Shown piece after piece: positions 5,343 to 30,781 of a stretch of 64,000 nt of DNA; the first letter of the stretch is position 1, and each line of letters starts with the position of its first letter. The stretch spans positions 124,001-188,000 of the forward strand of contig BRXU01000008.1 in the NCBI GenBank assembly GCA_030267565.1, read 5' to 3'. The translations under genes and the position numbers were made by a program. Under the pieces are notes generated by a model. The model was not told the origin of the DNA. It did no database searches and saw only the letters and a list, made by a program, of their open reading frames with translations. Source of the stretch: Pleodorina starrii. Lineage: Eukaryota > Chlorophyta > Chlorophyceae > Chlamydomonadales > Volvocaceae.

Positions 5343-5860
5343 GACGGTTGGGCCTCGTCACCCGCATGCAGGACGCAGTTAAGGTCCCCTCCAAGCAGAA
5401 TGTGGCGGTCTGTCTCGAGGTATGGCTGCAGGCTTTGGAAGAACTCTGGGCGGCTGGCGGCCACCGACGGGGCGTAGATGCATAGGAGGCGTAGGCGAAG
5501 GTGGAGGACATCCCAGTCCCAGCAGCAGACACGGCCGGCAGTGTCCGAGGTGTACGGGTGCTGCACACAGCCCGGCAGGCTGATCCCTGGCCGCGCCAGG
5601 ATGGCTGCCCCACAGCTGAGGTCCGTCCCCGGGCTGTAACCCCATTTGCCCCGCCAGGGGGCCCCCGGGCCGCTGCCTCGTTGTAAAACTGACTGCAGTG
5701 CTGCTTTGCTGCCCAGGTTCGCCTCCTGTACGAAGGTGACATCCGGGTTGCCTGCGACCTGCTGCTGGCAGCAGAGCAGCCTGGAGGCTCGCGCCCGCCC
5801 AAGCCCATTGACGTTTACGGTCAGGAGCTTGAAGGTGGGCGCGGTCCCGTCGGTCCTCAT
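5343..5860 (-). pseudogene. LINE alpha ORF2 start: APE-type endonuclease
   Basis: Begins MRTDGTAPTFK at 5860. The apurinic-endonuclease motifs are visible: TVNVNGLG (Asn), DVTFVQEANLG (catalytic Glu), LCIYAPS (Tyr) and ILLGGDLNCVL (Asp/Asn). The domain nicks the genomic target to prime reverse transcription. The frame is broken by the SINE at 4917-5342 and continues below it. The ATG overlaps the TGA of ORF1 (ATGA), as in the other copies. Confidence 0.85.
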
Positions 5861-6143
5861 GGCTGCACGCCACGCGCCGCCCGTCGGGAGGGGCGGCCGT
5901 CGTGGCGGGCGATTTGGGTTCGGGCCTGCTGCAGTTGGCCCAGAGCAGCGACGATGAAGGAGCGCACGTGCCCGGGGGTGGGGTGCAGGCCCGGCAGGAA
6001 TGGGGCCAGGGAGCGCAGATGGTCATGGTAGACCTTCAGAAATGCGCCGGCAGAGCTGCGATTGCCGGTCTGAGCTTGGAGGGCGGGCTCCAGGGCGGAG
6101 TGGGCCACTGCCAGCACCTCGGGCTGCACATGCGGGCACCGTG
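5857..6143 (-). pseudogene. LINE alpha ORF1, C-terminal piece
   Basis: The last 90-odd codons of ORF1 (ends with RAARGVQP), in frame up to the break at 6143; the rest of the same ORF1 is at 35428-37799. It contains the segment GAFLKVYHDHLRSLAPFLPG, common to all copies. I recognise no domain in this tail. Confidence 0.8.
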
Positions 6144-6146
6144 CGG

Positions 6147-10546: not shown

Positions 10547-10735
10547 CGTCTGTAATCTTGAGGGCCGTGTATAAATGGCAACCCCGTGTAATAAATGAGG
10601 GAAAATTTGACACCGTTTCAACACGGCTCGTGTTTGACACGGGGCGACACGGGCTGTTTCAACACGGCTCGTGTTTGACACGGGGGCGACACGGGCTGTT
10701 TCAACATGGTCTCGACTATACATGAGGCATTCACC
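10547..10735. repeat. Left terminal inverted repeat and subterminal repeats
   Basis: After the 8-bp terminal repeat come CCGTGTATAAATGG, then two near-identical 43-bp copies around 10616-10705, each containing CAACACGGCTCGTGTTTGAC and a GACACGGG motif. The motif ACACGG recurs in inverted sense near the right end. Arrays of this kind are where CACTA-type transposases bind; binding here is inferred. Confidence 0.75.
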
Positions 10736-10849
10736 GAATGCAGTTCGCATCTCCCAGATACTCGCTAGCGACTAAAACGGCTCATGGGGCATGCGTCCGT
10801 AGATTTTTACAGTGCCTTGCCTTGACAGCGACCACGAAGGATCTGTACG

Positions 10850-11431
10850 AATCCACCAGCCGCCAAAGCCACCCAAGCTCCTGTCCGGTCCCTCAGCCTG
10901 TCACCACAAAGCAAGCCCGGGACACACACCCCTATCCACAACCAGCAGCCAAACGGCGGAAGCAAACGGCACCCAAGCGCCCGTTGCTGCCTGGAACGAA
11001 AAGCCGGCCAGCCGATACAAACACAGTTGTCTAACGAAGAGGTCCCTAAAAGACGGCCGGGTCACCAGAACACACACACTCCCTAGGTCCCTACCCGGCG
11101 GAGCTAAGGAGGGCTGTTCACCTGCCGCCTACAGCCCCGTTTGCAGAGGACGGCTAGAACCCCACCAGGGCGAGCTCGACGGCCTCGTTCGTGGGCTAAC
11201 TGCTGAGCGAGAGGGGCTAACTGCCATGCCAGCCACAGCGCCCACGACAACCGCACCACGCATTGTTTCGAAGTGCAAGCCCGGGACACAACCCCCTATC
11301 CACAACCAGCAGCCAAACAGCGGGAACAAGTAAATGGCACCCAAGCACCCGTTGGCTGCTTGAAACGAAAAGCCAGCCAATACGAATATCGGCGTTACCT
11401 ACGCGTTCTCTTAAAGACGGCCAGCCTACCG

Positions 11432-11464
<33 letters not shown>

Positions 11465-11560
11465 TCCCCCTGCGGAGGGCCGGCCAAATGCTACCTACGG
11501 CGCCTATCACAGAGGACGGCTAGAACCCCGCCTGGGCGATCTCGATGGCCTCGCACGTAA
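10850..11560. repeat. Imperfect tandem duplication of the 3' end of the 545-aa gene, with (AC)n
   Basis: Two diverged copies offset by about 363 bp. 10916-11030 matches 11279-11395 (both contain CTATCCACAACCAGCAGCCA), and 11145-11190 matches 11508-11555. The right copy contains the real stop codon of the minus-strand gene; the left copy still encodes a related ending (EAVELALVGF then stop, against EAIEIAQAGF). So the last codons and downstream sequence were duplicated. A (CA)n run lies at 11433-11462. No other gene is seen from 10736 to 11519. Confidence 0.75.
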
Positions 11561-14196
11561 GCATCTTCTTGGACTTGTCCATTTGCCCCAGCACGTCGGA
11601 AGCGGGCACGACGTGCAGCCCCAAAGCGGACACCTCCCATCGCTTCATGATGGCCAGCCGGGTCTCGTACATCCGGTAGATCTCCTCGGAGATGGGCACA
11701 TTGTTCCCCGTCGTCTGTGCCACGTCCCCGTTCAGTGTCCGCCTCACCTACGGGTCACACAAGCACAAAATAAAATGGCGAGCCACGTACATATAGTTTT
11801 GAACTAGGACCAATTTGAGGTGTTGTACTCGAGCAGGGGGCAAGCACCAAACCAGCAATTCCTGAATGCTGTGGAGGTTTGCATCTCAATATACCATTAG
11901 CAGCCCATGGCATCCACCCGCGTCTTGTCCAACTCAAACCCCCACCTGCAAGTCGATGCAGGCCATCTCCTCCAGTGTAAATTCCGCCAGCTCGAGGTCG
12001 ACCTTCCAGCCCTTGCGGATGCGGCGAGCCGCGACGTACCAGGCGTGCGCGCACTGCTGGAACTCTGGCGCCGCCAGCCGCTTGTCGGGCTTGTCCCGGT
12101 AGCTGTTATCATCCAGCAACGCCTTCGCCACCTCACCACCCGGCTCGTGCCCAGAGCCGCTTGTCGACGGCGCCAGCCCGTAGGCCGCAATGGCCGCCGT
12201 CCGCACAGCAGCCTCCGCCTTGCCCTTGAAGTTGGCCCTGAAGTTCCCACTCGCCTGCAGGTTACACGGTTGCCAGTGCGGTCTGGTCACGTTGTTGATG
12301 CGATTACGTAGTGAGGAACAGTATTAATACTGGGCATAGCATGACTTATTAGAGCACGCGCATGCCATTTGTTGTATCCGCCTTTAGCAAAGGCCCCATC
12401 GGAACATGTCAGATACATGCTGGATACTACCCAGGATACTACACCATGCAAACACCCACCTGGCGCACAGCAGCCTCAAAGCCTTCTCTCTTCTCCCTGT
12501 CCATGCTCTTGAGGGAGGTCGGGTCGGTGCTGATCCCCATGTAGTCGCCAATCTCCCGCATGAAGGCCATGCCATCCTCCAACTTCAGGATGTAAGGCTG
12601 GGTCCGCAGCAGCAGCACCATCTTACCCGACACCGGATCCGCCTGGGGGAAAAAGGCAGCACACAAGAGCCGGGGGCCCAATGAAGCCGATCCTGTACAT
12701 ACTTGTCGGTGTGAGCAAGGTAGTGTGCGGGCGTGAATTGCTATGGCTGCCTACATCCTGGGGTTGGGTCCCCTGATGCAGTACAACCACCACACTCACC
12801 ACCCACCTCGACCGCAGAGGACCGCCTCCCCGACGGCCTCGGGCTCTTCAGCTCCTTCATGTCCTTGGACAGCGAACCCAGCACGCTGTGAACGGCCTTG
12901 AAGTGCGCCACCAACACCGAGAAAGCACGATCTTGACCGTGATCAGCGTCAGAACCCTCCCCGGTAGGCGCCTGCTGGCCGGGATCTGGCTGAAGATGAC
13001 CTGCAACGATGCAGTGTGAGGCTAGGTTCGACAGGGTCATGCTTGACTTTGCTGTGACATCTGCCAACCGGGCTAAGGCTCATATGGGTATGCCAGCAAA
13101 ACACCAGGCAACAGTACATACGCCTGTCTGTTGGAGCAAACATACACGCTGCGTGGGACGTATCAAGGCTTACCAGCCGCGAGGTCGTACAGGAGCACCT
13201 TGGCCGCCTCGATCGCGTCGTCTGTCTTTGGCTTGGTGGCTGGGCGTCCCCCACCTGAGAGCATACGAACATCGACGTCAGCGAGGCTCAATCTCCCCGT
13301 GAAGAAATTATGTACCACACGAGTCCGTATATCACCCTTCCCCCAGCGAAAACTTGAAGCAAGAGCCCCCCAAGTGTACCTACCGAGCTTGGTGGCCCTG
13401 CCGCACTTCAGGCCCACAGCCTCGGCCTCCAACACACCCAGATCGTCCTCCTCCTCATCGTCTTCGCCAGCTTGTAGTGCCGCCGCGTACTCTTGCTCGG
13501 AGTCACTGACATCGCCATCTGCGCAAGCCGCATCATCGCGCTCAGCGACCAAGTTGCCGTCACACCGGGCCGCTCTCCGGGGCTGCACCCGTGGTCCGGG
13601 ACCTGTCACCTGTGCGTGCACCAATTAGGCAGCAGAAGACCGTCAAAAATATATTATAGATTATTATATATATATAATATAGATTATTATACATCGCTTA
13701 TTTTTGGCAGCGAGCATAAGCTTAAGACCATAGCGAGACCCAGGCGGCATCCAACACTATTTTCAAAGAACCTACTTACCGGGGCCGGTGGTGCCCAGTT
13801 CTTGTCGGCCTCCTTGACGTAAATGTGCATGCCGTTGTTAAGGGCCATGGCAACGTCCAGCGCATCCAGCACCGCGCCCGCCGTCTTGACATTAGGCTTT
13901 GGCGTGTAAAAGGGCAGTTGCTTGTCCGCACGGGAGTACAAACATGTACCGTAGACAACGCAAGCTTCTTCCTTCCACAAGGCAAAGGATGGCCGAAAGG
14001 CCATCAGGGGGTTGGCAGCGTCACGCCCATTGACCACGACGAGGACGTTGCTGGCCTTGAACTCTGTCTTCTTGCTGCTCAATTTGTGCGTGTCTTTCAA
14101 GGACAAGCTCTTAAAAGAAGCTTTGTTTGCGTAAAGCGGCATGGAGCCTGGCTCGCACCAGTCCTCACCATGGGTGACCTTAGTTATCTTTGACAT
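11520..14196 (-). CDS. Transposon cargo gene 1: 545-aa protein of unknown function, 7 exons
   Basis: Exons (minus): 14196-13780, 13609-13384, 13254-13174, 13000-12807, 12642-12460, 12254-11946, 11747-11520. All introns are GT-AG, phases match throughout, and the joined frame is 545 codons plus TAG. Start ATG at 14196 (MSKITKVTHGEDW). Exon 1 (1-139) is a compact mixed alpha/beta region with VLVVVNGRD; exon 2 is acidic (EDDEEEDDLG), probably disordered; exon 5 holds LLLRTQPYILKLEDGMAFM; exon 6 is helical and charged with CAHAWYVAARRI. I recognise no family. The divergent neighbour starts at 14579, leaving a shared 382-bp promoter region. An AT-rich palindromic tract at 13646-13690 lies in intron 1. 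No signal peptide or membrane segment; probably a nuclear or cytosolic accessory factor. Confidence 0.85.
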
Positions 14197-14578
14197 TTGG
14201 TGGTGAGCGCACGTTGACGTAGCACGTAAACTTTCGTGTTACTTAATTATTTAAATGTTCGTGTTATTTAATTGTGTCGAAATGAGCATAAATAGTTTGG
14301 ATGACCTTCGTGTTTATATGGTCGAGTCAAAATGGACGAGCGGTTGTACGGGTGGCGCGGTGAGCCGACCTCGCAACGGTCACAGCAAACTGCAACTTCC
14401 ATGTAAAATTATAAAAGTGTAAAAGCTGTCATTTAACCTACATGTTAGTGAGGTTGATCAAGGCGCACACGCCAAGAGCATTCAGTACGTGCAAGCTGGA
14501 GTAAACTTTCCGACATTCGCTCGCTCCCTCGTTCGTGTATGGCTTAACATACCTCGCTGAGTGCCGCAGTCGCCAGAC
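14197..14578. promoter_or_regulatory. Divergent intergenic region, cargo genes 1 and 2
   Basis: 382 bp between two ATGs pointing away from each other. It is clearly more AT-rich than the surroundings, with TTAATTATTTAAATG at about 14243-14257 and TTAATTGTG at about 14269. It must contain both promoters unless the transcripts start inside the genes. I do not see a convincing TATA box at a fixed spacing. Confidence 0.5.
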
Positions 14579-16204
14579 ATGGACTATATTTCCTCTCCCG
14601 GCCGTAAATACCGGTCCCTAAAGAAAAACATAAGTGACATACTCGTATATTTTGGGCAGGAAGAGGGCGAGGTCGCGTCACTGGACTGTGCCGGTGTAGT
14701 TGATTACCTCGAAGCCATTGAGACTGGGACGACACGGTGCAAGCCCGTGGAGTTTTGCAACTTCCTTGTCGACGCAGCCGGTGCCAGGCCGGTTGCCGGT
14801 CACCCGCTCCGCGTCGAATGGGATGTGGGACACCATGGGGCAGCGTTGGCGTTGCTTACGCCACTCGAGGCCATATTCGAGCCCCTAGGTACAGGCGGCT
14901 GCTCTGTCGGGGTGGACATACGTTCCTCTTCTTGAGGCCCGCCCGTTGCCCGCCGATCACATGCATGCAGAGCCAAACATGACCTCCCTGGAGAGCTGTG
15001 GCAGCCCTGGCCAGCCAGTGGCAACCAGCCAGCGGGCCACCACCATTACCACAGAGCCAGGTGCCCCGCTCATGCTGTCGGCCTCGTCGGTTGTCTGCCA
15101 ATCGGGGGGTAAGTTCAGTGGTCGCAAGTACTGAGTACTTGCAGAAATTCAGCGGGCGTGAAGGACTGGACAAATGATCGATTGGGTTTTTGTACTGTCT
15201 GTGTGCAGGCACGTGCACTAGGACTGAGGCGCCCCCTGATGAAGCCGCCTGCATAGCAAAGCCGATGCCACAGTGTGTGGCCGCAGGCAGGCCCCCACGC
15301 TGCCCACGACGTTGACCTGTGCTTTGGCGTGTTTTCCACAGGCAACACGCCAGCATGGGCTGGAGTTCCGGGGGCTGCAGTTCCCGTGTGGCGATCCAAC
15401 CTTTGCGCGCCAGACACCGTTGCTGTGGCCATGGCCGTGGTTACACCTCCGTCACTGTTGCATGGCTCAAGTAGCAGGCTGGCCAGGTTCTGGTACTTAC
15501 TTGGGGAGGCCATAAGGAGCCAGGACCACACAGCAGTGAGAACCGTGCAGGACGAGATCAGTGGCGAGCTGCTAGGTCTGGCCCAGCGGTGTGGCAGGGG
15601 CTCATGGCAGGCCGGCGACTTTTTGGGGGTAAATGAGATTTGGGACATGCTGTGCACGGAAGACCCACGGTTCCGTCACGGCTTGTGCGCCTCGCTCGAG
15701 TGTGGAAGGTGTGGGGCTTTCGCGGTTGTGGACAGTGGCGTGCACCAGTCGAACAACTACTGTGTGTTGGACTTATTTGCTGGCAACCAGAGTGTGGAGG
15801 GTGTGTGTTGTGCGACGAGTATCGGGCAGTTCCCTAAGCGCTGGCAAAACTGCAAAGCTTGCGGTGTCCCCATGTCTCTTGCATCGGTAGAAATTTCTGC
15901 TAGCGCCCCTGTGCTGGCCGTGTACGTGGAGCACGGGCCGGGACCCGCCAGCACGCACCCAAGGCTGGGGGGGATATGTCTACAGGGCCGTGTGTTCTCA
16001 ATGGAGGCTGTCATTGTTCGGCTGCCGGGGCCACACTTCGCTGCATACATTTACGCCCGCGGAATGGGTGCCATACAGAATGGGTGGCACTACTATGATG
16101 GCATGGACCGTCCGATGCTCCATTGGGTCGGTGCATCCTTGGCTCTGCGTCCCCAGCATGCGGATGCCATTGTCATGCTCATGTACCGTGAGGTGATGTC
16201 GTAG
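14579..16204 (+). CDS. Transposon cargo gene 2: ubiquitin-specific-protease-like (C19) protein, 436 aa
   Basis: Exons 14579-14888, 14971-15108, 15342-16204, GT-AG, phase 1 at both joins, TAG at the end. The C-terminal two thirds follows the order of a USP domain: a Cys box SNLCAPDTVAVAMAVVTPPSL (Cys about 171; families usually show NTC), a QAGDFL segment where QQDAxEFL is usual, two zinc-type CxxC pairs (ECGRCG about 270-273, NCKACG about 320-323), the strand PVLAVYVEHG, and a His box GPHFAAYIYA (His about 381) with HYYDGM (Asp about 402). USPs remove ubiquitin from proteins. The N-terminal 150 residues (MDYISSPGRKYRSLKK) match nothing I know. The match is by motif order only and divergence is large; a Ulp/USP-related fold without activity is possible. 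An extra small exon between 15109 and 15341 cannot be excluded. Confidence 0.65.
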
Positions 16205-17046
16205 GTTTGACACTCGGGTGTAGTAGCTCTGCTGTGCTGATTCTGTGTGTGCAATGTGTCATGGAGAGTGTCGGGCCCTATGTGTGCGTGTGGGTTACAA
16301 AAACGCAAGGGAATGAATGTGGTGCGTGGGGGGTGTCAGCATGGCAAGCGTTTTATGTAGACGTGTACGGAACCCTGTGAACCCTGTGTACCAGACTCAT
16401 GGCCCCCCTACATCGATTGCATGGTCGAACCTGTTCGGCCGTCTGTTAATGAATCGCCTGTCAATTTACCGGTATGTTTGCCGGGCCCCAGGAATCAAGC
16501 ACGCACCTAATAACCCACTGCACCACATCAGCAGAGTACAAGCCAGTACACATCCCAGCCATTAGACACTGCACAGCTGCTCATCATCATCCGAGACTTC
16601 TTCTCCTCGTTCCTAAATCAGCAATCACGCTCATTCAACGGAAGTACGACAGCAAATACCAATGTACTTCGTCCGTGTACCCGCCTTCTCCTTTTCTGGT
16701 TTTCGTTTCCTGGCTGAACAAGGCAATTAGTCTGCACATTCTCGGTGTGCAGGGGGTCTACACGCACACGAGTCGTTTCCGCCAAACACAGCGCCAAACA
16801 CAGCGCCAAGAAGCCTCCCGGCATACAAAGTCACCAATCTCATGTATCCGTCCGGCATCAGGCAGGCCCGCAAGGACCCCAACTGAAGAAAGCCCAGCAA
16901 CCCCGTGCCCTTCCTATGGTCACCTGTCACAGTCATGTCGGCCAGGCCCACTCCAGCCAATTATTCCGCCCGTCACATGTGTCTCTTCCTAATTACGTGT
17001 GTCCCCCGCCACCCATCACAGTGAACACGGCCACTCTCCCAGCACA
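16205..17046. other. Convergent intergenic region, no gene seen
   Basis: 842 bp between the stop codons of cargo genes 2 and 3, so it holds two 3' ends. A short direct duplication of CCAAACACAGCG lies near 16780-16805. I found no AATAAA or TGTAA placed convincingly for either gene and no further reading frame I would support. Confidence 0.5.
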
Positions 17047-20000
17047 CTAAAAGAGGGCCGCAAACAAGGACCCCATGGGCTCCACGGGGTGGGTTTCGTT
17101 GTCAACACTGCCCCGGTACACGTAAAAGTGGATGCGCGGGGACCAGGTGTTGAGCACACCTGCATCCCCGGCATGCACCGTGTTAACGTGCAGCAGGACG
17201 ATCTGGCCAGGCTTCATGTGCATCCGCACCATCTTCGGTGCCGACACACTGAGCATGATCCCCTCATCTGGCACCTGAGGCTGCGCCTCCTTCAGCTTGT
17301 GGTACAGCTGGACGGCAGTGTGGCTGCCGGGGGAAACAAGGACCGAGACCGGCTCCAGGGGCAGGAAACCAACGAAGCCGCTAACCCCCGGCGCCAGATC
17401 CACGTGGGTAGCCTGCACCCCGACAGGCGGATCCCCGGGTTTGCCAGGGTGATTGGCCAGCACCACCGCCTTCTGAACGCTCTCTCCTTTGCGTGCCACC
17501 TTTCGCAGGTATTTGGAGCCGAACCTCCGGATCGGTAGCAGCCTTTCGTACAGCTTTAGTACTTGCTTCTGGCTGGCCTCCTGCTCACCCTCACCCCCCT
17601 CCGCCCCCCCACTCCCACCCCCCTCCTCCTTACTCCCGTCCTCCTCCTCAGCTCCATCCTCCTCACCCATCTCGCTCCCGCTCTCACCCCGATCCGTGCA
17701 CCCGCTCGCCGCGTGCCTGACTGCCGGCATGGTTGGCCGCTGGAGGTTCACCATCCAACGCTGTCCGCCGGTGCCGTAGTCCATGAGCAACCGCCCCTCG
17801 TCGTGCTCGTCGTAGCAGTAGTTGCCAGCATTGTTTTGTCGCAGCTCCTGGAAGATTGGCCCACCCTTGAGCCTGCAGAGCTGTTTCGCCGCCTCTGCTG
17901 CATCGGGGATCTTTTCGAGCAGCTCTTTCAGCTCCGGCGGCTCCAGGGTCACCATACCCGCCATCTCGAGGTAGGAACGGGCATGTTTGATGCCGTCACA
18001 CTTGTAAAGGGCCGCCGGGACACTTTTGTAGCCGACCTGCAAAAAAGCACAAAAAGCGCAAGCATTCTATGGACTACTGCGGCGGGTCGGCGTGTCTGCA
18101 GTGCTAACCGTTATCGAGGCCAACACTGTACACACCTGACTGCTTGGCCCAGCACCGGAGTCTGTGACAATGCCAGCCACCCACGCGCTGATGTCTGGGT
18201 CGAGCTCCTGCATGGAGTGTGGGTTTGTTAGTCATCCAACCGTCATGGCAGAAGCGCAATGTCGTGGCAATAACAAAGGTATCGTGGTACCTGCTCGGCC
18301 GAAGATCCCGCCTGCATGGCGCTTGGGGAGGGCTTTCGCCGCTTCACTGGGCGCCTGCTGGCGTACGTGACCTCCTTCCCCTGCAACCGGGCCTCCGTCT
18401 CCTGCGCAATTGAATCCACACGTTACATTTCGACCAGAAAATCAGATTCCCGACATTCAACTCACCCCAAAATACAATCTTTGTGGGCGCTTGGAGCCTG
18501 CCGCACCCTCAGCGACAGCCTGCATGCGGAGCGGCATGGCAGGCACGGGGGTCCATACTTAAGTCGGGGGGGGGGGGAAAAACGAATACAGATGCGCCGC
18601 TGCCTGGTTGACCCATCCCACCTCCAGCGTTACACAGGACGGCGTCCAAGGCTCGAGTGCTCACCTCCACGGCCGGGGACTGGACCTCGGCATCTGTGCT
18701 GCCCTCCTCCATCTCCGAAACAAAGGATCCTTCTGTGCCGTCGATGGCCGTAGCGCCCGGCACGTCGCCCAGCCCTCCAGCTCGCGGGGCGTCCTCGTCG
18801 CCCTGCCTTGGCTGCTCGGCAGCGGCCTGGGCGGGTGGGGCGGCGCAAAGGTGCGGGGACGTGAGGGTTGATGCGGGGAGGGGCGTGCGAGGGCGCGTGG
18901 ATGCCCACCGACAGCCAACCAGCTGCACAGCTTGAACGTTGGGGAGCCCGCGTGCTTCCCCACAAAAGCCAGTGTGCCCCGTAATGGCCGACCGCACAGC
19001 AGGCACCCAGCCCCCTCCCGAGGCACGGAACGCGTCCAACCCACCGCCGTGAGGTCTCGGAGCTGTCCGCCATCAGCGGGGGCGGCGCCCCCACCGTCGC
19101 CCAGCCCTCCAGCTCGCGGGGCGTCCTCGTCGCCCTGCCTTGGCTGCTCGGCAGCGGCCTGGGCGGGTGGGGCGGCGCAAAGGTGCGGGGACGTGAGGGT
19201 TGATGCGGGGAGGGGCGTGCGAGGGCGCGTGGGTGCCCACCGACAGCCAACCAGCTGCACAGCTTGAACGTTGGGGAGCCCGCGTGCTTCCCCACAAAAG
19301 CCAGTGTGCCCCGTAATGGCCGACCGCACAGCAGGCACCCAGCCCCCTCCCGAGGCACGGAACGCGTCCAACCCACCGCCGTGAGGTCTCGGAGCTGTCC
19401 GCCATCAGCGGGGGCGGCGCCCCCACCGTCGCCCAGCCCTCCAGCTCGCGGGGCGTCCTCGTCGCCCTGCCTTGGCTGCTCGGCAGCGGCCTGGGCGGGT
19501 GGGGCGGCGCAAAGGTGCGGGGACGTGAGGGTTGATGCGGGGAGGGGCGTGCGAGGGCGCGTGGATGCCCACCGACAGCCAACCAGCTGCACAGCTTGAA
19601 CGTTGGGGAGCCCGCGTGCTTCCCCACAAAAGCCAGTGTGCCCCGTAATGGCCGACCGCACAGCAGGCACCCAGCCCCCTCCCGAGGCACGGAACGCGTC
19701 CAACCCACCGCCGTGAGGTCTCGGAGCTGTCCGCCATCAGCGGGGGCGGCGCCCCCACCGTCGCCCAGCCCTCCAGCTCGCGGGGCGTCCTCGTCGCCCT
19801 GCCTTGGCTGCTCGGCAGCGGCCTGGGCGGGTGGGGCGGCGCAAAGGTGCGGGGACGTGAGGGTTGATGCGGGGAGGGGCGTGCGAGGGCGCGTGGATGC
19901 CCACCGACAGCCAACCAGCTGCACAGCTTGAACGTTGGGGAGCCCGCGTGCTTCCCCACAAAAGCCAGTGTGCCCCGTAATGGCCGACCGCACAGCAGGC

Positions 20001-23000
20001 ACCCAGCCCCCTCCCGAGGCACGGAACGCGTCCAACCCACCGCCGTGAGGTCTCGGAGCTGTCCGCCATCAGCGGGGGCGGCGCCCCCACCGTCGCCCAG
20101 CCCTCCAGCTCGCGGGGCGTCCTCGTCGCCCTGCCTTGGCTGCTCGGCAGCGGCCTGGGCGGGTGGGGCGGCGCAAAGGTGCGGGGACGTGAGGGTTGAT
20201 GCGGGGAGGGGCGTGCGAGGGCGCGTGGGTGCCCACCGACAGCCAACCAGCTGCACAGCTTGAACGTTGGGGAGCCCGCGTGCTTCCCCACAAAAGCCAG
20301 TGTGCCCCGTAATGGCCGACCGCACAGCAGGCACCCAGCCCCCTCCCGAGGCACGGAACGCGTCCAACCCACCGCCGTGAGGTCTCGGAGCTGTCCGCCA
20401 TCAGCGGGGGCGGCGCCCCCACCGTCGCCCAGCCCTCCAGCTCGCGGGGCGTCCTCGTCGCCCTGCCTTGGCTGCTCGGCAGCGGCCTGGGCGGGTGGGG
20501 CGGCGCAAAGGTGCGGGGACGTGAGGGTTGATGCGGGGAGGGGCGTGCGAGGGCGCGTGGGTGCCCACCGACAGCCAACCAGCTGCACAGCTTGAACGTT
20601 GGGGAGCCCGCGTGCTTCCCCACAAAAGCCAGTGTGCCCCGTAATGGCCGACCGCACAGCAGGCACCCAGCCCCCTCCCGAGGCGCGGAACGCGTCCAAC
20701 CCACCGCCGTGAGGTCTCGGAGCTGTCCGCCATCAGCGGGGGCGGCGCCCCCACCGTCGCCCAGCCCTCCAGCTCGCGGGGCGTCCTCGTCGCCCTGCCT
20801 TGGCTGCTCGGCAGCGGCCTGGGCGGGTGGGGCGGCGCAAAGGTGCGGGGACGTGAGGGTTGATGAGGGGAGGGGCGTGCGAGGGCGCGTGGGTGCCCAC
20901 CGACAGCCAACCAGCTGCACAGCTTGAACGGTGGGGAGCCCGCGTGCTTCCCCACAAAGCCAGTGTGCCCCGTAATGGCCGACCGCACAGCAGGCACCCA
21001 GCCCCCTCCCGAGGCGCGGAACGCGTCCAACCCACCGCCGTGAGGTCTCGGAGCTGTCCGCCATCAGCGGGGGCGGCGCCCCCACCGTCGCCCAGCCCTC
21101 CAGCTCGCGGGGCGTCCTCGTCGCCCTGCCTTGGCTGCTCGGCAGCGGCCTGGGCGGGTGGGGCGGCGCAAAGGTGCGGGGACGTGAGGGTTGATGAGGG
21201 GAGGGGCGTGCGAGGGCGCGTGGGTGCCCACCGACAGCCAACCAGCTGCACAGCTTGAACGTTGGGGAGCCCGCGTGCTTCCCCACAAAAGCCAGTGTGC
21301 CCCGTAATGGCCGACCGCACAGCAGGCACCCAGCCCCCTCCCGAGGCGCGGAACGCGTCCAACCCACCGCCGTGAGGTCTCGGAGCTGTCCGCCATCAGC
21401 GGGGGCGGCGCCCCCACCGTCGCCCAGCCCTCCAGCTCGCGGGGCGTCCTCGTCGCCCTGCCTTGGCTGCTCGGCAGCGGCCTGGGCGGGTGGGGCGGCG
21501 CAAAGGTGCGGGGACGTGAGGGTTGATGCGGGGAGGGGCGTGCGAGGGCGCGTGGGTGCCCACCGACAGCCAACCAGCTGCACAGCTTGAACGTTGGGGA
21601 GCCCGCGTGCTTCCCCACAAAAGCCAGTGTGCCCCGTAATGGCCGACCGCACAGCAGGCACCCAGCCCCCTCCCGAGGCGCGGAACGCGTCCAACCCACC
21701 GCCGTGAGGTCTCGGAGCTGTCCGCCATCAGCGGGGGCGGCGCCCCCACCGTCGCCCAGCCCTCCAGCTCGCGGGGCGTCCTCGTCGCCCTGCCTTGGCT
21801 GCTCGGCAGCGGCCTGGGCGGGTGGGGCGGCGCAAAGGTGCGGGGACGTGAGGGTTGATGAGGGGAGGGGCGTGCGAGGGCGCGTGGGTGCCCACCGACA
21901 GCCAACCAGCTGCACAGCTTGAACGGTGGGGAGCCCGCGTGCTTCCCCACAAAGCCAGTGTGCCCCGTAATGGCCGACCGCACAGCAGGCACCCAGCCCC
22001 CTCCCGAGGCGCGGAACGCGTCCAACCCACCGCCGTGAGGTCTCGGAGCTGTCCGCCATCAGCGGGGGCGGCGCCCCCACCGTCGCCCAGCCCTCCAGCT
22101 CGCGGGGCGTCCTCGTCGCCCTGCCTTGGCTGCTCGGCAGCGGCCTGGGCGGGTGGGGCGGCGCAAAGGTGCGGGGACGTGAGGGTTGATGAGGGGAGGG
22201 GCGTGCGAGGGCGCGTGGGTGCCCACCGACAGCCAACCAGCTGCACAGCTTGAACGTTGGGGAGCCCGCGTGCTTCCCCACAAAAGCCAGTGTGCCCCGT
22301 AATGGCCGACCGCACAGCAGGCACCCAGCCCCCTCCCGAGGCGCGGAACGCGTCCAACCCACCGCCGTGAGGTCTCGGAGCTGTCCGCCATCAGCGGGGG
22401 CGGCGCCCCCACCGTCGCCCAGCCCTCCAGCTCGCGGGGCGTCCTCGTCGCCCTGCCTTGGCTGCTCGGCAGCGGCCTGGGCGGGTGGGGCGGCGCAAAG
22501 GTGCGGGGACGTGAGGGTTGATGAGGGGAGGGGCGTGCGAGGGCGCGTGGGTGCCCACCGACAGCCAACCAGCTGCACAGCTTGAACGTTGGGGAGCCCG
22601 CGTGCTTCCCCACAAAAGCCAGTGTGCCCCGTAATGGCCGACCGCACAGCAGGCACCCAGCCCCCTCCCGAGGCGCGGAACGCGTCCAACCCACCGCCGT
22701 GAGGTCTCGGAGCTGTCCGCCATCAGCGGGGGCGGCGCCCCCACCGTCGCCCAGCCCTCCAGCTCGCGGGGCGTCCTCGTCGCCCTGCCTTGGCTGCTCG
22801 GCAGCGGCCTGGGCGGGTGGGGCGGCGCAAAGGTGCGGGGACGTGAGGGTTGATGCGGGGAGGGGCGTGCGAGGGCGCGTGGGTGCCCACCGACAGCCAA
22901 CCAGCTGCACAGCTTGAACGTTGGGGAGCCCGCGTGCTTCCCCACAAAAGCCAGTGTGCCCCGTAATGGCCGACCGCACAGCAGGCACCCAGCCCCCTCC

Positions 23001-24242
23001 CGAGGCGCGGAACGCGTCCAACCCACCGCCGTGAGGTCTCGGAGCTGTCCGCCATCAGCGGGGGCGGCGCCCCCACCGTCGCCCAGCCCTCCAGCTCGCG
23101 GGGCGTCCTCGTCGCCCTGCCTTGGCTGCTCGGCAGCGGCCTGGGCGGGTGGGGCGGCGCAAAGGTGCGGGGACGTGAGGGTTGATGCGGGGAGGGGCGT
23201 GCGAGGGCGCGTGGGTGCCCACCGACAGCCAACCAGCTGCACAGCTTGAACGTTGGGGAGCCCGCGTGCTTCCCCACAAAAGCCAGTGTGCCCCGTAATG
23301 GCCGACCGCACAGCAGGCACCCAGCCCCCTCCCGAGGCGCGGAACGCGTCCAACCCACCGCCGTGAGGTCTCGGAGCTGTCCGCCATCAGCGGGGGCGGC
23401 GCCCCCACCGTCGCCCAGCCCTCCAGGCAAGGACGATACAGCGGTGTCATCCTCGCCTGGAGCCTCGTTGTCTAGCAGGGCGCTGCCACTCGCCCGGCAT
23501 GCCGACGCTACAATAGAAGCGGTTCTCGAACCAGGGAGTGTGGGGACTGTGTACATGCTGGCCGAGGTGTGAGCCTGCAATTATCAGGAGGTGTGTCGTT
23601 AATGCAGCGGACTTTGCATGGTAACAGCGACGTATCCTGCATGCACGGCCACTCAAAGCACAATACTTGCCCATGGAGGCAGCTGGCTGGGCTCGGCCAT
23701 GCTTCCCGAAGGCATGCCACTGCTCTCGGGATGCTCCAGAACGCTCGATGTAGCGGCCTTCTCCAAGGCCTACGGGTTTTTTTGCTGCTGTAAGCGACAC
23801 TTGAAACGAACACAGAGTGCCGGACAGCAGGGCCGTATAGTTTGACACTCACCTCATACAGCTCCTTCACCAGGTTGAGCCACGCAACTTGTGGCCAGTG
23901 GTACTGGTAGTATGTCGTCGGGCGGCCACCGATGGTGACGGTTTGCACTGTGTTTTGGGCCGCGCCTACCATCCAGCTCTTGGGGCGCTCTGCATCCACC
24001 TCCGCCCAGGCCACGTCGAGGGCCGCCCTAACAATTGCTATGTCGGGGCCCTCAACGTTGCCCAGGTTAATGTCACCGATGTGAATGCCCAGAGACGCGA
24101 GCTTTGTAAGGGCATGGAGCCGAGCACCGCGTTTTATATGCTCGTTAAAGTGCGTTCTGTCACTTTTACCATCGAAACCAGCCAGAGGCCCCAGTGCTTC
24201 TTGTCTCTGGGGCAGCACGGCAGAGCGAAGTGTGCGAGACAT
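17047..24242 (-). CDS. Transposon cargo gene 3: 2OG/Fe(II) dioxygenase-like protein with amplified 38-aa exon, about 1,158 aa
   Basis: Exons (minus): 24242-23853; 23574-23359; thirteen copies of a 114-nt exon from 23140-23027 stepping about 332 bp down to about 19158-19045; 18826-18665; 18519-18466; 18401-18291; 18207-18136; 18036-17047. Every join is phase 0. The last exon (329 aa) has a double-stranded beta-helix dioxygenase signature: HVD (about 1040-1042), distal His in NTVHAGD (about 1117) and Arg in SPRIHFY (about 1130), the residues that bind iron and 2-oxoglutarate in PhyH, AlkB and TET/JBP-type enzymes. An acidic insert precedes it. Residues 1-130 (MSRTLRSAVLPQRQ) are a conserved-looking domain I cannot name. 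The middle is a repeated, probably disordered linker (unit AAAEQPRQGDED...LRDLTA). The substrate is unknown: DNA base, RNA or protein. Divergent from the transposase gene. Confidence 0.78.
18665..23574 (-). repeat. 332-bp tandem array: amplified exon-intron unit (13 full exons)
   Basis: Fourteen donor sites (TAACGGCG-type exon end then GTGGGT, on minus) and fourteen acceptors (CGCCCAG then GCCGCTGCC) alternate at a 332-bp period; two units are 331 bp because of a single A lost in the intron (near 20956 and 21951). Each unit is a 114-nt exon starting and ending in phase 0 plus a 218-bp intron, so any copy number keeps the frame. In the copies I compared by eye the exon sequence was identical, and the few variants (CGGGG/AGGGG, GGATG/GGGTG, GGCAC/GGCGC, GTTGG/GGTGG, the A deletion) were all intronic. 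Confidence 0.85.
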
Positions 24243-25130
24243 TCATTCCGTGTGCATTTTGGCGCCAAACACATTTACTGATTCACTCACCGTGTGCGTG
24301 CTGTCCCTGAATACAATATCGTATATGGATGTACCATTGCACATTGCTGGTGCGTATCCACATAGCAGGCGGTAGTGAAGCGCCGAACCAGGAGGGCACT
24401 TTGAAATTTTCGACGCCAAAGCATACGAGCCCGAAGCCACCTCATGTGTGGCGCGTTTTAAGGTGGCGACACGTCTTGACAGAGCGCAAATCTCGAGCTC
24501 TAGTGAAGTCATAGTGCCAGACTTCATATAACTATCATATCACATTTCATGACTACACGATTCTGGTTTCGCCAAAATTTAGAGCTTGCCTAAGAGTTGG
24601 GCAAAATCAAGGCGGCACTGAAATCCTGACACCAAAGAACATTAGCAAAATGTAAGCGCCGAGCTTGATTGTCAAAAGACAAGTTATACTCAAATGTGGA
24701 TGTTTAGAATCCAGGTTTACTTCGCCGGGGTGGAGGGCGAAGGTTGTAGACGGCGTGCCGTACTTTGCCCCAATCCTAGGGCAGAGTACGACAGTGGTTT
24801 GACTGCAGCTTGACTGTATCATGAAGAGATAACTCGAACAGCACAGGTCACGGCCGCGAAATGAGCTATTCAGTATACTGGATTACTGTTAATAAGAAAG
24901 ATTGAAATTGATAGACAATTTCTCACTTGCAACCAAGCCCCAACATCCGGCACATATTACTTACCACATCGTCTGGATATCAAAATGCAATTCACGTCGT
25001 AATGCAATGCCGACTGAACGACAAACGCGGGGACAGTCAACAACCTTTGACCGTGTTACTGTTCCATCTTAGCTTCCTATTGTTAACAACGCACATACCT
25101 ATCAAGAACGTAGTGGTATTAGTAGTAAGG
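24243..25130. promoter_or_regulatory. Divergent intergenic region, dioxygenase and transposase genes
   Basis: 888 bp between two outward-facing ATGs, lower in GC than the rest of the element. Two direct AGGCGG/AAGGTGGCG-like stretches occur around 24365-24475. No open frame longer than about 100 codons is convincing. It should contain the promoters of both genes; I cannot point to individual elements. Confidence 0.45.
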
Positions 25131-28100
25131 ATGAGCGGTTTGCGTAAATGCGAGCATTGCGGAGAGCTCTTCAGGGAGACTTCATTCCACATCCACAAGC
25201 GAACATTTCCGCTCGGGACCTGTCGTCGTGACGCTTCGGGTGAAATCGCTGTGGCATCCGATGTTGGGACTTTAGGAGCCGCTGCTGCTAAACCGTCTGT
25301 GGCGGCGGACACTATGGCGATTGGGACTGAGACGTTCTTCGGGCACATGGAGGAGCTTGGGCAGCCAGATCAAGTCCAGTCATTGCCGCGGCTGGCAGGA
25401 AACCCGGCATTCGAACGATTCCTGATAACTAATCTTTCGGGTACGGAATACGATTGCGCACAGGCTTTTAGAGCGTTGCAATGTTGAGTCCATCTTTATT
25501 TGCGAGTATCCATAGAACCTCTCTTGCATGCCAGGAGCGAAAATAAATGAGCTCTTAAGACTACACGAAGAGGGCGGTGGGTGGCAGCCCAGCGCGTCAA
25601 ATGCCACTGGTATCGCAGCCAACCTCAGGGAGCAGTACGCCGGCCAGGGCTTTCAGCACCGGGACCTCTCCGCCATGTTCAACCGGGGCCCGGGGGAGGT
25701 GGTGCTCTCAGTGCATCACGACGTTCTGGGGTTAGTTCAGGAACTGTTCCGCCACCCGCTAGGAGCAAGTGGCCTGGCGTTGAGGCCAACCATGCGGTAC
25801 GACAAGCACGGTCAGCGTGAGTACAACGAGATGTACACTGCCGACAGGTGGAATAAGGACCAGGTGAGTGTGTATGCCATGTTGGTGTGGGGATCGACTG
25901 CCGAGCCTCTGCGTGGCAGCAATGGTCTGCAATTTCCTAGCAGGCGAGATACCCCAAGGACACGATGATCTACGTCATGGCCTGGTCCGACAAAATGGCC
26001 TTTGACAAGGCAGGGCGGCAAACAGGACATCCGCTGACCATCTCGCTGGGTACGGTTGCCTGTTAGGAAGCCACGCCGTGTCCGTGCGAGCGGGCGTGCA
26101 CCCATACATATACTTATTTGGACTTGTGCTTCGAGCAGGAAATCATTCGGTGGAGTTCCAGCGCTCACGGGAGGGGACGAAAATCCTTGCACTGCTGCCA
26201 CAGCTCCGCCCCTTGGAAGGTAATGCACCCACATGCGCAAACGTGGCACTATTCCATCAGTTCTGTCGTGTGCTCACCCCGTTCGTGCCATCTTTTGGTC
26301 GCCCGGCAGGCCAGTCCTCCGACAGTGTGGAGTTCAGGGACCAGCGACGCAAACTGCTGCAGGAAGCCCTGCGCCAGTCACTTGAGGTTCTCATGGAGGC
26401 CAGCAAAGGGTAAGCACGCCCCCCCCTGGCATGCCATTACATTGGTGCTTTCAGCAAGTAATAATACCGACCAACCCCCATTTCGCAGTGTTGTGCGGCT
26501 GTACGACCACACCGGCACCATCCGAGAGTGCCGTGTAGTCCTCGGTGCTTTCCTGGCGGACCTGCAGGAGCAGTGGGACGCGCTAAGTCTTGCCCACTAC
26601 CCTGCATCCCGCTGCGACGTGGCGACACTGGCTACCCGCGAGGACTTCATCAAGCCAGATGCAGCTCCAGCTGCACGGACGGAGGAGATAATGCGGAAGG
26701 TACGTGGGCCCCACCGGGGCTAGCGTTCACATCACCCCACGTGTTCGAGCCAAACCACCTTCTTCCGTGCACTTGAAGGTGACGGCCGTTGCGATGGACT
26801 TGGAGGCCGGGAAGCTGCGGGGTTGGAAGACCACGTACGATAACCTGTGCCGTGGCTTCGGGTTCCATCCCAACGAGGTGCGATTACCCATGCATGAATG
26901 GTATGGTTGCGCTACCTTGCCTAGAGCAGATACACAGTCCATATGGGGGCATGCATGGGGCCGCAGTGTGATCCCCCCACACCAGCCACCGTCGGCAACG
27001 AACACCCCACCTCCCCCTTGCACAACTAACGGACAGCCACTGCGCGGGCGGACTGCACACCACATGCCGCGCAGGTGGCACTGTGGGGCTTCCACGGAAC
27101 GGACATTTACAGCTGTGTGCCGGCGGACACGCTGCATCAGTGCTTTAACGGCATGACCAAGCACTTGTTCGCGTGCCTCCTGGACTATATCAACGAGAAC
27201 TGCCGTGACCACAAGGAAAGTGTGGTCTGCATCCTCCGCGACCGACTGTCATCTTACCGCCGGCTGCACTATGGCGGCCGGATCCCAGCTAACAGCCTCT
27301 GGGCAATTAAGACCTGCGGCGAGGTACGTGCACGGGGGCTGATGTAACCATTGGTGCACTTAATGGTGGAACAATGCCATTATACCCCGTCCTTTGCAGG
27401 AAAACGAGGCCATAATGCGGTTCATTGGCATTGCACTGTACGGACTGATGGAATTTGGGGTGGCCGACGAGGTGGTGGAGCTTTTTGCGAGTAAGCCTTG
27501 ATGGAAGGGGTGGCTCCGTGTGCGCGTGCCACTGTGTGTGCCAGGAGGGGGGGGGGGGGGTGGGAGCCGACACGGGTGCTGGGGCTGGGCACTTGGTGTG
27601 TAGGCTGTCCCTGTGGGCTGTTTGATCTGTGGCCGGGGGATGCGGGCAGGGCGCATGCTGGTATGTACTGGGGAGGAGGCTGTTTACGCGGCTTGAACCG
27701 CTGTCCCTTTGCCCCGGGCCTGGCCACGCAGAGTACGCCCGCTACGTGCAACTGAGGGACACCCATGTGCACACCACTGGAAGCCTGCGGATGCTGGAGG
27801 ACCTCGTGGCCGGGTAGGGTTAATTGCAATTCTTACATAACCGCGCAGCTTTCCCATCCAGTGACGCAAGACTGCCGCACGTATTTGCAGGCTGCAGGGC
27901 GATATCCTGAAGGTGTTTCCCACCAAGAACTGGGACTTCCCCAAGTTCTTTCACATGCGGAAGTACGCTGCAGACATCCGCATGTACGGCATGACGGACC
28001 TCACCACCACGGGCCCAAAGGAGAGCCTGGTCAAGGACATCAGGAAGGCATGGATGAACACCAACAAGAAGAACGACACCTACAACCAGCAGGTGCGCTG

Positions 28101-29570
28101 TATGTCCACGATCAGCTAAGGCGGTTCGAGAAACTGTTTACTATCCGTTACACGCTACTGGTTACGTACGTAACGCCTGGATGCGTGCAGGTGGCAGACA
28201 AATTGCACTTGCTCTCTATTCCAACAGGGAAGGCAGCGGACGAGGAGGGGAGCAGCGTGGTAAGTGTCCTGGAATTACGTCATACATCACGTAGTATGTG
28301 GACTTATCTGCCATGTCACTACTGTCACCTGCACGATGCCCAGGGTGCAGAGGCACAGCGCTCCCGGAAGCACATCATGGGGCGATCTGGGCGGACACTG
28401 GCGTGGGACCGTGTTGCGAGTACCGTTGCAGGCGCAACGCGGGACGGTGAGTGGTGCTGACAAAAGCGGGTTTGTGCAGGGGTTCATGCAGTCGAGTATT
28501 GCTCTCTTCACCTACTGCTGTTTATGCAGGAGACGTGGAGGACACCAGTGCGGCGCGGGCCTTCAGGCCGTGTCTGGCTGCGTTCCTGAAAGAGCAATGG
28601 CAGGGCATCGCACCCGTCGAGCTGGATGAAGCCACGGTATGCGCCAGTTGTCCTGCTTAGCTCAGGCAACGGTGTGGAGGAACAATGCTTGCTGCGGTTG
28701 TACGTAGGATGTGTGCGTGCATGCCATGCTCTGGCTTGCATGCTGCCTATCCCTGACATATGCGTGGGACGCGACTTGCACCACCGTGCAGATTGAGCTG
28801 CGGCGGGTTGCGGCGTTGTTCTACGAGCCGTACGGCACAAGCAACCTGATCCGACCCGCACGGGCATTCTCGGCCTTGTTTGGCCCTGGATCTAAGCGCC
28901 AGGGGTTCTGTGACCTCTCAATGTTGGGCACTGGTGATGTGGGCTATGGTAAGCACGACGGGCAGAACGACTTGTCCGAGATCGTCACGGACACGTGGTA
29001 CGGCCGGTGCTTGCTCCTCTTCACGGCAAGGATGCGTGGGCAGGAGGTCAACGGCGTGTACGTGCGATGGTTTGGCCCGTCCGAGCACGTCTGGAACAGG
29101 ACCCTGAACCTGCGACCGCTGGAGTGGCACAAGTAAGTTGTTTCGTGGGAATGAAGCTGGGTAGATACAATCTCAAGGCTGGAACGGCTGTGCTACATCC
29201 CCATGTTTCGAAGGGGAATGTCAGACGTGACCGGCTTGGGTCGGACAGGCTTGTGTCTTCTCTTGTTGATTGCAACCTTCATGGTACCATGCCTTACTAC
29301 TCTGCTCTTTTGGCCTGCCATGTACGCAGGCGGACGGGTGACGTGGAGGGATACGGCTGCGTATCCCTGGAGAGCGTGATGGAGAGGGTGTGCATTGTGC
29401 GTGTTGTACCGAGGCGGATCCCAGGGATTGCGCCGAGCAAGAAGCGGAAGGGTGCTGCCACGGAGGGCAGGCCCTCCGACGGGCCGGGCTACTTCATCCT
29501 CAACGACATGGTTGGGCCCGTTCCCGTCGATTACACGTACATCCACACTGACCAGCCACGCCCGGAGTAG
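25131..29570 (+). CDS. Plavaka-like transposase, 906 aa, 16 exons
   Basis: Exons: 25131-25440, 25535-25863, 25944-26049, 26139-26219, 26310-26409, 26489-26699, 26779-26877, 27075-27323, 27400-27490, 27732-27813, 27891-28092, 28191-28259, 28344-28446, 28530-28636, 28792-29132, 29330-29570; all GT-AG with matching phases, ending TAG. An N-terminal zinc finger CEHCGELF...HIHKR (7-25) suits DNA binding. Family landmarks follow in order: REYNEMYTADRW; AWSDK (Asp 229); LTISLGNHSVEFQRSREG; YDHTGTIRECRVVLGAFLAD (Asp 333); VPADTLHQCFNGMTKHL (Asp 430); FPTKNWDFPKFFHMRKY; and TGPKESLVKDIRKAW (Glu 597) with NTNKKNDTYNQQ. These match the transposases of Plavaka/CACTA-like elements as I know them from fungi; which acids are catalytic is inferred. 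The enzyme would cut at the 8-bp ends of the 20-kb element. No frame break, so it could be active. Confidence 0.88.
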
Positions 29571-30480
29571 CAGGGCTGGGATGACTGAGGTGGCAGGATG
29601 ATGAAGCCTTTGCTTGTACGTAAGAGTAATAAAAATACGCCCGACCGGAGGCCGGGGCGTGGATGAAGGAAGCAGAAGAGGTGGGGTGACGAGTTTCCCC
29701 GGTCCCATTCCTCCCCCGCCGCCGCAGTGGGGGTTGACAACGAATTTTGGTTGCTATGTGCCCGTCGGCTGTTGCATCTCGAGCGGCGCGCGATCCATTT
29801 GCCGCTTGGTGACCACAATCTTATTTAACGCCCGGACAGCGTGGTCCCGGACTTCATTGCGGCATGTCTTGGCCGCTTCACTGCCCGCCCCTGGGTGCAG
29901 ATTAGGGGACGTAGACCCTTTCGGATCTTACCGGGCTGTACGTACCTACGTAATCGTTAGAGCTTCTGCTTTTATTTTGGTGGGTTGCTACACTGACATA
30001 CGTGTGATAAGGGTTTTTAGGGTTTTAGGTTTTTAGTGTGATATGATCGATGGAAGTGCGTGTTTGTAACTGCTGTGCAAGCAAACAGGCGTGTGGGTGC
30101 GTGCGTGCGTGACTGCGCTCTAAATCGGGTTTGACAGATGTGATGCGGTGGGGACAGGGCTTGCCTTGGTGGAGACCTGGTTTCATGGAGATACCTGGTT
30201 TGATGACGGTCAGGCTGTACGTATGTGCTCTACATAAACTGATACCGAAGTTCGGTATGTTCGGGATTGCTGCAAGGGAGAACACGTACATTCGAGGGTA
30301 TGTACGAGGGTACGTACGTACTTGGAGATGTTGGATGTGGGGTCAATGGAAACTGGCGTCGGTACAGGCAAGCAAATTTGTGCAGGTGTGTGCATGGGGT
30401 ACAAACGGAAGTAGTCACAGCTGCCGCCTGGCGTGCGTAACTAGCCACGGGCACTGTGATCTGTCCGACAAGCGTGTAAG
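29571..30480. other. 3' region of the transposase gene, no further gene
   Basis: An AATAAA lies at about 29627-29632, some 57 bp after the stop, a likely polyadenylation signal. The remaining 850 bp is of mixed composition with repeated GTACGTAC-type steps around 30285-30320. No reading frame is convincing. Confidence 0.5.
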
Positions 30481-30781
30481 AAATGGCTAGTCTCAACACG
30501 GATGTGTGTACACGATAATATACATCTCCTGAAGTCGACTCCATGGACTATACACAAGCCGTGTCTACACGAACATTTATACACGAACCGTGTCCACACG
30601 CACATGTACACTCCACCCGTGTCTACACGGGGCGATATACATGGCCGTGTTGGACACGGCCATCTGTACACGGCCGTGTTGAAGCGGCCGTGTATGACAC
30701 TATCCGTATCTTTTTGCAATACACGGCCATGTTGAAGCAGACCGAACACCATGTCAACACTAGGCCCCAAAAGTACAGACG
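30481..30781. repeat. Right subterminal repeats and terminal inverted repeat
   Basis: At least fifteen ACACGG or CCGTGT motifs in about 250 bp, many as GGCCGTGTTG...ACACGGCC palindromes, then the terminal TACAGACG at 30774-30781. ATTTATACACGAACCGTG near 30575 mirrors CCGTGTATAAATGG of the left end, showing that the inverted relation reaches beyond the 8 bp. Confidence 0.75.

Follow-up and report, generated by a model that had tools for sequence, protein, structure and literature searches.

A probable Plavaka-type transposon carrying a candidate oxygenase gene in the genome of Pleodorina starrii

Here, we describe an element with four predicted genes at positions 10547..30781 of a 64,000-nucleotide stretch of Pleodorina starrii DNA (the window; coordinates without a contig label refer to it), which is very likely an algal cut-and-paste transposon of the Plavaka type (DDE, EnSpm/CACTA-related) that can move autonomously. 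This reading is based on exact ends, 2-base-pair (bp) target-site duplications, a family of short copies, an open model of a 16-exon transposase and an empty site. The genome analyzed is a 136-Mb assembly of 95 contigs in which the window lies within contig C8, and the labels C1 to C62 and the like denote contigs of this P. starrii assembly. The genome yields 65 matches to PF00504 (Chloroa_b-bind, a chlorophyll-binding family), and the host is therefore a photosynthetic eukaryote, probably a green alga, in agreement with a preliminary description of the stretch that had suspected an algal host.

The boundaries of the element and its empty site, a copy of a long interspersed nuclear element (LINE), are as follows:

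10545..10546, unstranded: target-site duplication CA, left copy, corresponding to a single CA in the empty LINE copy
10547..10554, unstranded: left terminal inverted repeat CGTCTGTA, from the sequence and the shared tips of paired copies
10565..10694, unstranded: left subterminal ACACGG cluster of 8 motifs, partly a 41-bp tandem repeat
30496..30726, unstranded: right subterminal ACACGG cluster of 11 motifs
30774..30781, unstranded: right terminal inverted repeat TACAGACG, from the sequence and the shared tips of paired copies
30782..30783, unstranded: target-site duplication CA, right copy, from the sequence and the empty LINE copy
3302..4101, minus strand: empty site, an element-free LINE copy, 800/800 bp identical to the joined flanks

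Both junctions are exact, with CA preceding CGTCTGTA at 10545-10554 and following TACAGACG at 30774-30783, and the boundaries and CA duplication proposed in the preliminary description hold to the base. The inverted ends agree at 8/8 bp, and by eye at 12 of the first 14. The first 300 bp hold 8 occurrences of ACACGG or its complement CCGTGT and the last 300 bp hold 11, against no more than 2 per interior 300-bp stretch, which bears out the subterminal arrays claimed earlier. The element sits in an L1-type LINE, whose reverse transcriptase domain is recognized in the right flank (E 1.8e-29). When 400 bp of either flank were joined via one CA and compared with the window, they matched the minus-strand LINE copy at 3302-4101 at 800/800 bp. 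Longer alignable flanks differ from the empty LINE at 1/893 bp on the left and 4/1292 bp on the right (5/2185 bp in total), and because the host LINE and the empty copy are thus only ~0.2% apart, the data suggest that the insertion is younger than this LINE pair, unless the LINE copies have been homogenized.

The ends of the element are dispersed through the genome, with at least 42 matches to the right 302 bp and at least 51 to the left 214 bp (window included), totals to which some copies contribute several matches apiece. By hand we selected 16 pairs of left and right matches in the same orientation that extend to the tip; these paired copies, the window included, range from 604 bp (on C17) to 22.7 kb, and 14 of them measure 0.6-5.3 kb, far below the length of the window element. 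Both ends thus occur together in 15 paired copies besides the window, as a genome-wide search proposed in the preliminary description was meant to find, and the 8-bp tips it had noted recur throughout. The terminal 14 bp on both sides are common to 16/16 paired copies, partly by construction since only tip-reaching matches were picked. A 2-bp direct duplication (CA, TT, TA, AA, CG or AG) flanks 15/16 of them, the copy without one being C45:380153-383636, or 15/17 when the copy on C43 described below is added; duplications were assessed on paired copies, leaving unpaired left and right ends aside. As C15 and C32 each hold two copies with identical flanks, the pairs represent 14 independent insertions. 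Partial copies of the element are found on C2, C5, C22 and C38. The empty site, the target duplications and the dispersed copies together refute an ordinary host gene cluster with chance flanking repeats, an account to which we attach virtually no probability.

The predicted genes and the main parts of gene C are:

25131..29570, plus strand: gene D, predicted Plavaka transposase, 16 exons, 907 amino acids (aa), with an N-terminal CxxC zinc-finger-like motif
17047..24344, minus strand: gene C, 21 predicted exons, 1129 aa, N-terminal exons uncertain
17047..18036, minus strand: last exon of gene C, candidate 2-oxoglutarate/Fe(II) oxygenase domain (HVD...H...R)
18763..23426, minus strand: 332-bp tandem array of 14.1 units within gene C
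14579..16204, plus strand: gene B, 2 exons (14579-14888 and 15342-16204), 390 aa
11520..14196, minus strand: gene A, 7 exons, 545 aa, no assigned family

Genes were predicted with a simple spliced-gene finder whose splice-site weights were set by hand, and the models of B and D were edited by hand. Our models comprise 46 exons across the four genes with all frames open, the same number of genes and exons as reported before; gene A again has exactly 545 aa, and gene D has 907 aa where 906 had been given. In a coding control for genes A, B and D, with codon tables trained on other genes, 25 shuffles and the opposite strand, the finder's best models scored 117.8 for A (shuffle maximum 6.4), 133.4 for D (4.6) and 8.0 for B (2.7). 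The models in that run had 545 aa in 7 exons (A), 790 aa in 15 exons (D) and 358 aa in 6 exons (B), and since those of B and D differ from the hand-edited ones, the control is no exact test of the latter. On these scores the gene reading is strong for A and D and weak for B, while the 3' exons of gene C are supported by their being recognizable in a relative on C6.

Gene D carries the assignment to Plavaka. Its 907-aa model matches the Pfam Plavaka family (PF18759) with 116.4 bits (cut-off 26.3, E 2.1e-33) over profile positions 47-322 of 325, in line with the Plavaka-like transposase recognized earlier, a type known mostly from fungi. The introns of gene D are GT-AG, and a hand-found exon at 26139-26219 is kept in a relative on C4 (28 aligned residues, 54% identical), which supports the model. 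A six-frame search of the whole genome with the Plavaka family gave no match, and neither did its controls; the exons are short, and recognition required the spliced protein. In a cut-and-paste cycle, the transposase would bind the ACACGG arrays and the 8-bp ends, cut the element out and insert it elsewhere with a 2-bp stagger, and it would also move the short copies.

A second copy with all four genes, another thing the preliminary description had suggested looking for, exists on C43, where it runs from 722472 down to 689753 and is collinear with window 10547-30548. With this copy and the paired ends at hand, the outcome named beforehand as refuting the transposon does not occur. Identity with the window is 91-97% per aligned block, low-identity secondary alignments and alignments inside the array having been dropped. 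Six segments, between 76 bp and 9.1 kb long and missing from the window, break the copy up; each break shows a 3-8 bp overlap, as nested insertions leave, and one of the segments lies within the oxygenase exon. With two stops in its gene D as well, the C43 copy looks dead. Exons differ between C8 and C43 by 2.5-3.4% and introns by 3.9-4.3% (gene D: 2.8% in exons versus 4.3% in introns), and the ratios of non-synonymous to synonymous rates (dN/dS) from the final models, given with no significance test, are 1.03 (A), 0.64 (B), 0.49 (C, 3' exons) and 0.60 (D), which may be read as mild signs of past constraint on B, C and D, not on A. Uncorrected models had made all four genes look neutral, with synonymous/non-synonymous codon counts of 11/41 (A), 3/10 (B), 18/45 (C) and 20/43 (D) and with 0, 0, 1 and 2 new stops, respectively; we rejected this view, as the final models leave only A neutral.

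Several observations weigh against an autonomous Plavaka element. On C43, the final 204 bp of the right end come only after another 19 kb, and a target duplication was looked for at the outer flanks of this copy and none was seen, so the distant right end may come from another copy. The ratio of 1.03 indicates no constraint on gene A. Gene D lacks the zinc motifs reported for Plavaka, C(2)C and H(3-4)H, placed between the second D and the last E: its sole CxxC is at residue 7, and neither HxxxH nor HxxxxH occurs, a result that depends on the exon model and was obtained with no mapping of the acidic triad onto fungal proteins. Finally, the TGT..ACA termini of PlavakaA or the CATCA..TGATG termini of PlavakaB are present in 0/16 paired copies, all of which end in CGTCTGTA..TACAGACG. 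The element thus fits Plavaka by its transposase and its 2-bp duplications, not by the described termini or zinc motifs, and by termini it is neither of the two described Plavaka sublineages.

Could the window copy itself be dead or silenced, its open frames a mere sign of youth and the short copies moved by other elements? Just two four-gene copies were found, one of them broken, as this would predict. We nevertheless consider it rather improbable, given that all four models are open, that the introns of gene D and of 13/13 gene C array units checked are GT-AG, and that the host LINE differs from the empty copy at 5/2185 bp. The young transposon proposed in the preliminary description is supported, and the copy appears complete.

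The second protein of interest is encoded by gene C, whose last exon carries the pattern HVD...NTVHAGD...R.H.Y. In an alignment of six members, one of them from the window, all have the distal His and the Arg (6/6), and HxD is present in the 5/6 rows that extend to this region. We take HxD...H...R to be the catalytic-type residues of a 2-oxoglutarate oxygenase. The Pfam PhyH family matches 5/6 members (best E 2.2e-4), with the window domain itself below threshold (21.9 bits, cut-off 22), and the dioxygenase-type protein suggested earlier is retained as a candidate. NCBIfam gave no oxygenase match, PHROGs gave oxygenase matches only at E 0.04 or worse, and PDB searches with the oxygenase as single sequence or as profile (the latter at E up to 10) gave none. 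An AlphaFold model of the oxygenase exon, computed without relatives, was too poor for a fold search (mean predicted local distance difference test score, pLDDT, 34.1). Open-frame relatives are present at C6:4010629 and C24:1424997, and dN/dS is 0.34 (C8-C6), 0.37 (C8-C24) and 0.50 (C6-C24) overall and 0.18, 0.30 and 0.31, respectively, within the domain, which indicates that the oxygenase gene is under purifying selection.

A highly diverged TET/JBP enzyme, similar to the PE type of fungal transposons and oxidizing 5-methylcytosine, would be another way to account for gene C. The same transposon superfamily bears TET/JBP genes in fungi (PMC12730594), and PE-type members are recognized solely through structure-based comparison. 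Nonetheless, the Tet_JBP profile matches 0/6 oxygenase members at E up to 1, whereas PhyH matches five of them, and the PDB profile search was equally blank; we regard this identity as unlikely and refer to the protein as a candidate oxygenase outside TET/JBP.

Further oxygenase copies are scattered over the genome. More distant ones, 43% or 58% identical, come in sets of three and seven loci, and the oxygenase is therefore a repeated gene family. A 43%-identical frame lies at three loci with equal match positions (C6:839381, C6:990283 and C6:1021077), apparently another multi-copy element. A piece of the oxygenase exon of 138-142 bp with 87-89% identity is found at seven loci (C33:300108, C10:1797205, C45:244640, C40:571682, C1:9197101, C21:356394 and C10:1894512), six of which end at the same query positions, as if the piece were carried by another repeat. 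On C37, two copies that both carry stops lie inverted 20 bp apart, at C37:259826-260665 (minus strand) and C37:260686-261628 (plus strand); transcripts of this pair, if made, could fold into a long hairpin RNA.

The tandem array of gene C, which the preliminary description does not mention, lies upstream of the oxygenase domain. Its units each contain an exon of 114 bp that uses a common CAG acceptor and GT donor and encodes the same 38 residues (13/13 units checked). As 114 is a multiple of three, the number of units could vary without a frame break, and the C43 copy is ~2.7 kb shorter over the array, close to eight units. An in-frame expansion of this 38-aa exon array might tune the binding part of the oxygenase.

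What links the oxygenase to transposition? A transposase relative on C4 (194/376 compared codons identical in amino acid, overlapping matches being partly counted twice) starts ~2 kb away from a piece of the oxygenase, the two being arranged divergently as in the window. On C6, an oxygenase exon has transposase 3' exons (45-50% identical) at a distance of 2.9 kb. Similar transposase 3' exons (38-50%) are present on C31 and C5, and the pair is found at 2/4 loci of this second, distant Plavaka-type transposase, C4 and C6. Between C8 and C4, the transposase has a synonymous rate (dS) of 1.42, with 54/90 compared four-fold sites changed, versus a dS of 0.32 and 14/78 four-fold sites changed for the oxygenase. 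Because selection at the protein level alone cannot explain the lower synonymous rate of the oxygenase, the simplest reading these values suggest is that the oxygenase has been exchanged between transposon families; gene conversion or uneven codon bias could have contributed to the gap. Two findings speak against such a pairing: the C4 oxygenase is a partial piece split over two frames, and near the C31 or C5 transposase exons no oxygenase match was seen. Beside the C24 oxygenase, a transposase match was not found.

The oxygenase and genes A and B might alternatively be passengers captured from the host, of no use to the element. Consistent with this, genes A and B have no match beside the C4 and C6 loci, the oxygenase and gene B both have relatives at loci with no detected Plavaka transposase, C31 and C5 have second-type transposase exons with no detected oxygenase, and gene A shows no constraint. 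Yet at two loci the oxygenase accompanies a second type of transposase with its orientation kept, and purifying selection acts on it; we find the passenger account quite doubtful. Of the mobile module of four genes envisaged in the preliminary description, the transposase with its oxygenase is borne out at these two second-family loci, whereas genes A and B are not.

Comparable arrangements are known from fungi. Plavaka transposons create target-site duplications of 2 bp, or of 2-3 bp, and fungal members carry TET oxygenase genes inside the element; TET/JBP genes have moved between fungal transposon lineages, and these oxygenases are thought to fight silencing by DNA methylation, a function not experimentally validated (PMC12730594). 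The P. starrii element resembles the TET-carrying Plavaka of fungi (PlavakaB) in combining a Plavaka transposase with an internal oxygenase gene, in its 2-bp duplications (2 or 3 bp there) and in the apparent transfer of the oxygenase between lineages. It differs in its photosynthetic host, its oxygenase unmatched to TET/JBP, its two additional predicted genes and its ends, CGTCTGTA..TACAGACG versus CATCA..TGATG in PlavakaB and TGT..ACA in PlavakaA (PMC12730594).

Outside fungi, the suggestion that a cargo-bearing Plavaka form in an alga may be undescribed went too far, as EnSpm-Plavaka transposons have been named in the green alga Auxenochlorella, where they are likewise cut-and-paste elements of Plavaka type, potentially active and polymorphic for insertion (PMC12633428); the comparison relies on a one-sentence mention in which cargo, ends and size are not stated. 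In relatives of Chlamydomonas, Kyakuja and Zisupton are likewise green algal DNA transposons from little-studied superfamilies, but their transposases belong to a different superfamily (KDZ), and the word Plavaka is absent from the main text of that study (PMC8226300). The giant repeats of Amoebidium, again a non-fungal case, are very large units that are associated with Plavaka and carry additional genes; unlike the element described here, they reach up to 50 kb, contain tyrosine-recombinase genes and are intron-poor (PMC11244446). Fungi thus already provide examples of Plavaka with an oxygenase, and for Plavaka itself there is a mention from one green alga; an algal Plavaka with an oxygenase was not recognized in the article texts searched, which cover neither Repbase nor supplements.

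By analogy with the fungal enzymes, the oxygenase might act on modified DNA or chromatin at the element and so counter its silencing, a possibility to which we give somewhat less than even weight. More tentatively still, algae may possess their own Plavaka lineage, in which a transposase is paired with a non-TET/JBP oxygenase that has been swapped between families as a portable counter-silencing tool, paralleling fungal TET, and whose 38-aa array tunes a binding part. If the exchange is real, oxygenase swapping between transposon families would extend to a second eukaryote group, and such swapping may help transposons escape silencing. This raises the questions of whether the enzyme acts on DNA, on which base, and whether the element needs it. 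The many short copies provide ready reporters, and the oxygenase question becomes testable outside fungi.

Genes A and B are proposed to encode accessory proteins. Residues 360-499 of gene A match DUF6532 below threshold (E 0.094), and a C1 relative, 39% identical to the C-terminal part, has no DUF6532 match. A fungal study lists DUF6532 with Plavaka among added domains (PMC8955403), which for gene A is a lead only. In an intron of gene A, ~80 bp at 12364-12444 are missing from the C43 copy and have 19 short matches elsewhere in the genome, probably a small insertion into the window copy. The best two gene B relatives fetched are 41-42% identical and conserve H...Y...GW residues. This motif presumably resembles the histidine box of ubiquitin-specific proteases (USP); no profile supports it. 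Gene B has no match to the UCH profile or to protease families, a catalytic Cys box was not seen by eye, and a PADLOC search gave none, and the USP-like label of the preliminary description, which goes back to a motif, is not supported. Two other candidates were dismissed as chance, namely PDB matches to subtilisin inhibitors only (E 0.4 or worse) and a below-cut-off match to MSP1a (E 0.0028) that covers residues 10-59 of the open frame and begins ahead of exon 2. An AlphaFold model of a gene B piece, again without relatives, was too poor for a fold search (mean pLDDT 34.7).

The longest paired copy, on C62 (22.7 kb, both ends, AG duplication), was considered as a second long element and rejected, as its interior consists of a LINE-type frame and an insertion resembling a long terminal repeat (LTR) element, not of the four genes. 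The LINE-type frame at C62:159001-168990 exceeds 3,300 aa; besides endonuclease, reverse transcriptase and RNase H, it contains a Josephin domain of deubiquitinase type (E 1.2e-6, above its cut-off), and a PCIF1_WW match is sub-threshold. When C62:149577-172270 is read on the minus strand, two 335-bp direct repeats at positions 13275-13609 and 20083-20417 of that stretch are 100% identical and surround long open frames, so that the C62 copy itself hosts a young insertion of LTR type.

Finally, sequence matching the flanks of the element (window 1-10546 and 30784-64000) recurs at many other places in the window, in either orientation and with ~75-99.9% identity. The flanks contain A and T runs and form a cluster of LINE copies, which resembles the clustered Zepp-like L1 elements at Chlamydomonas centromeres (PMC8226300).

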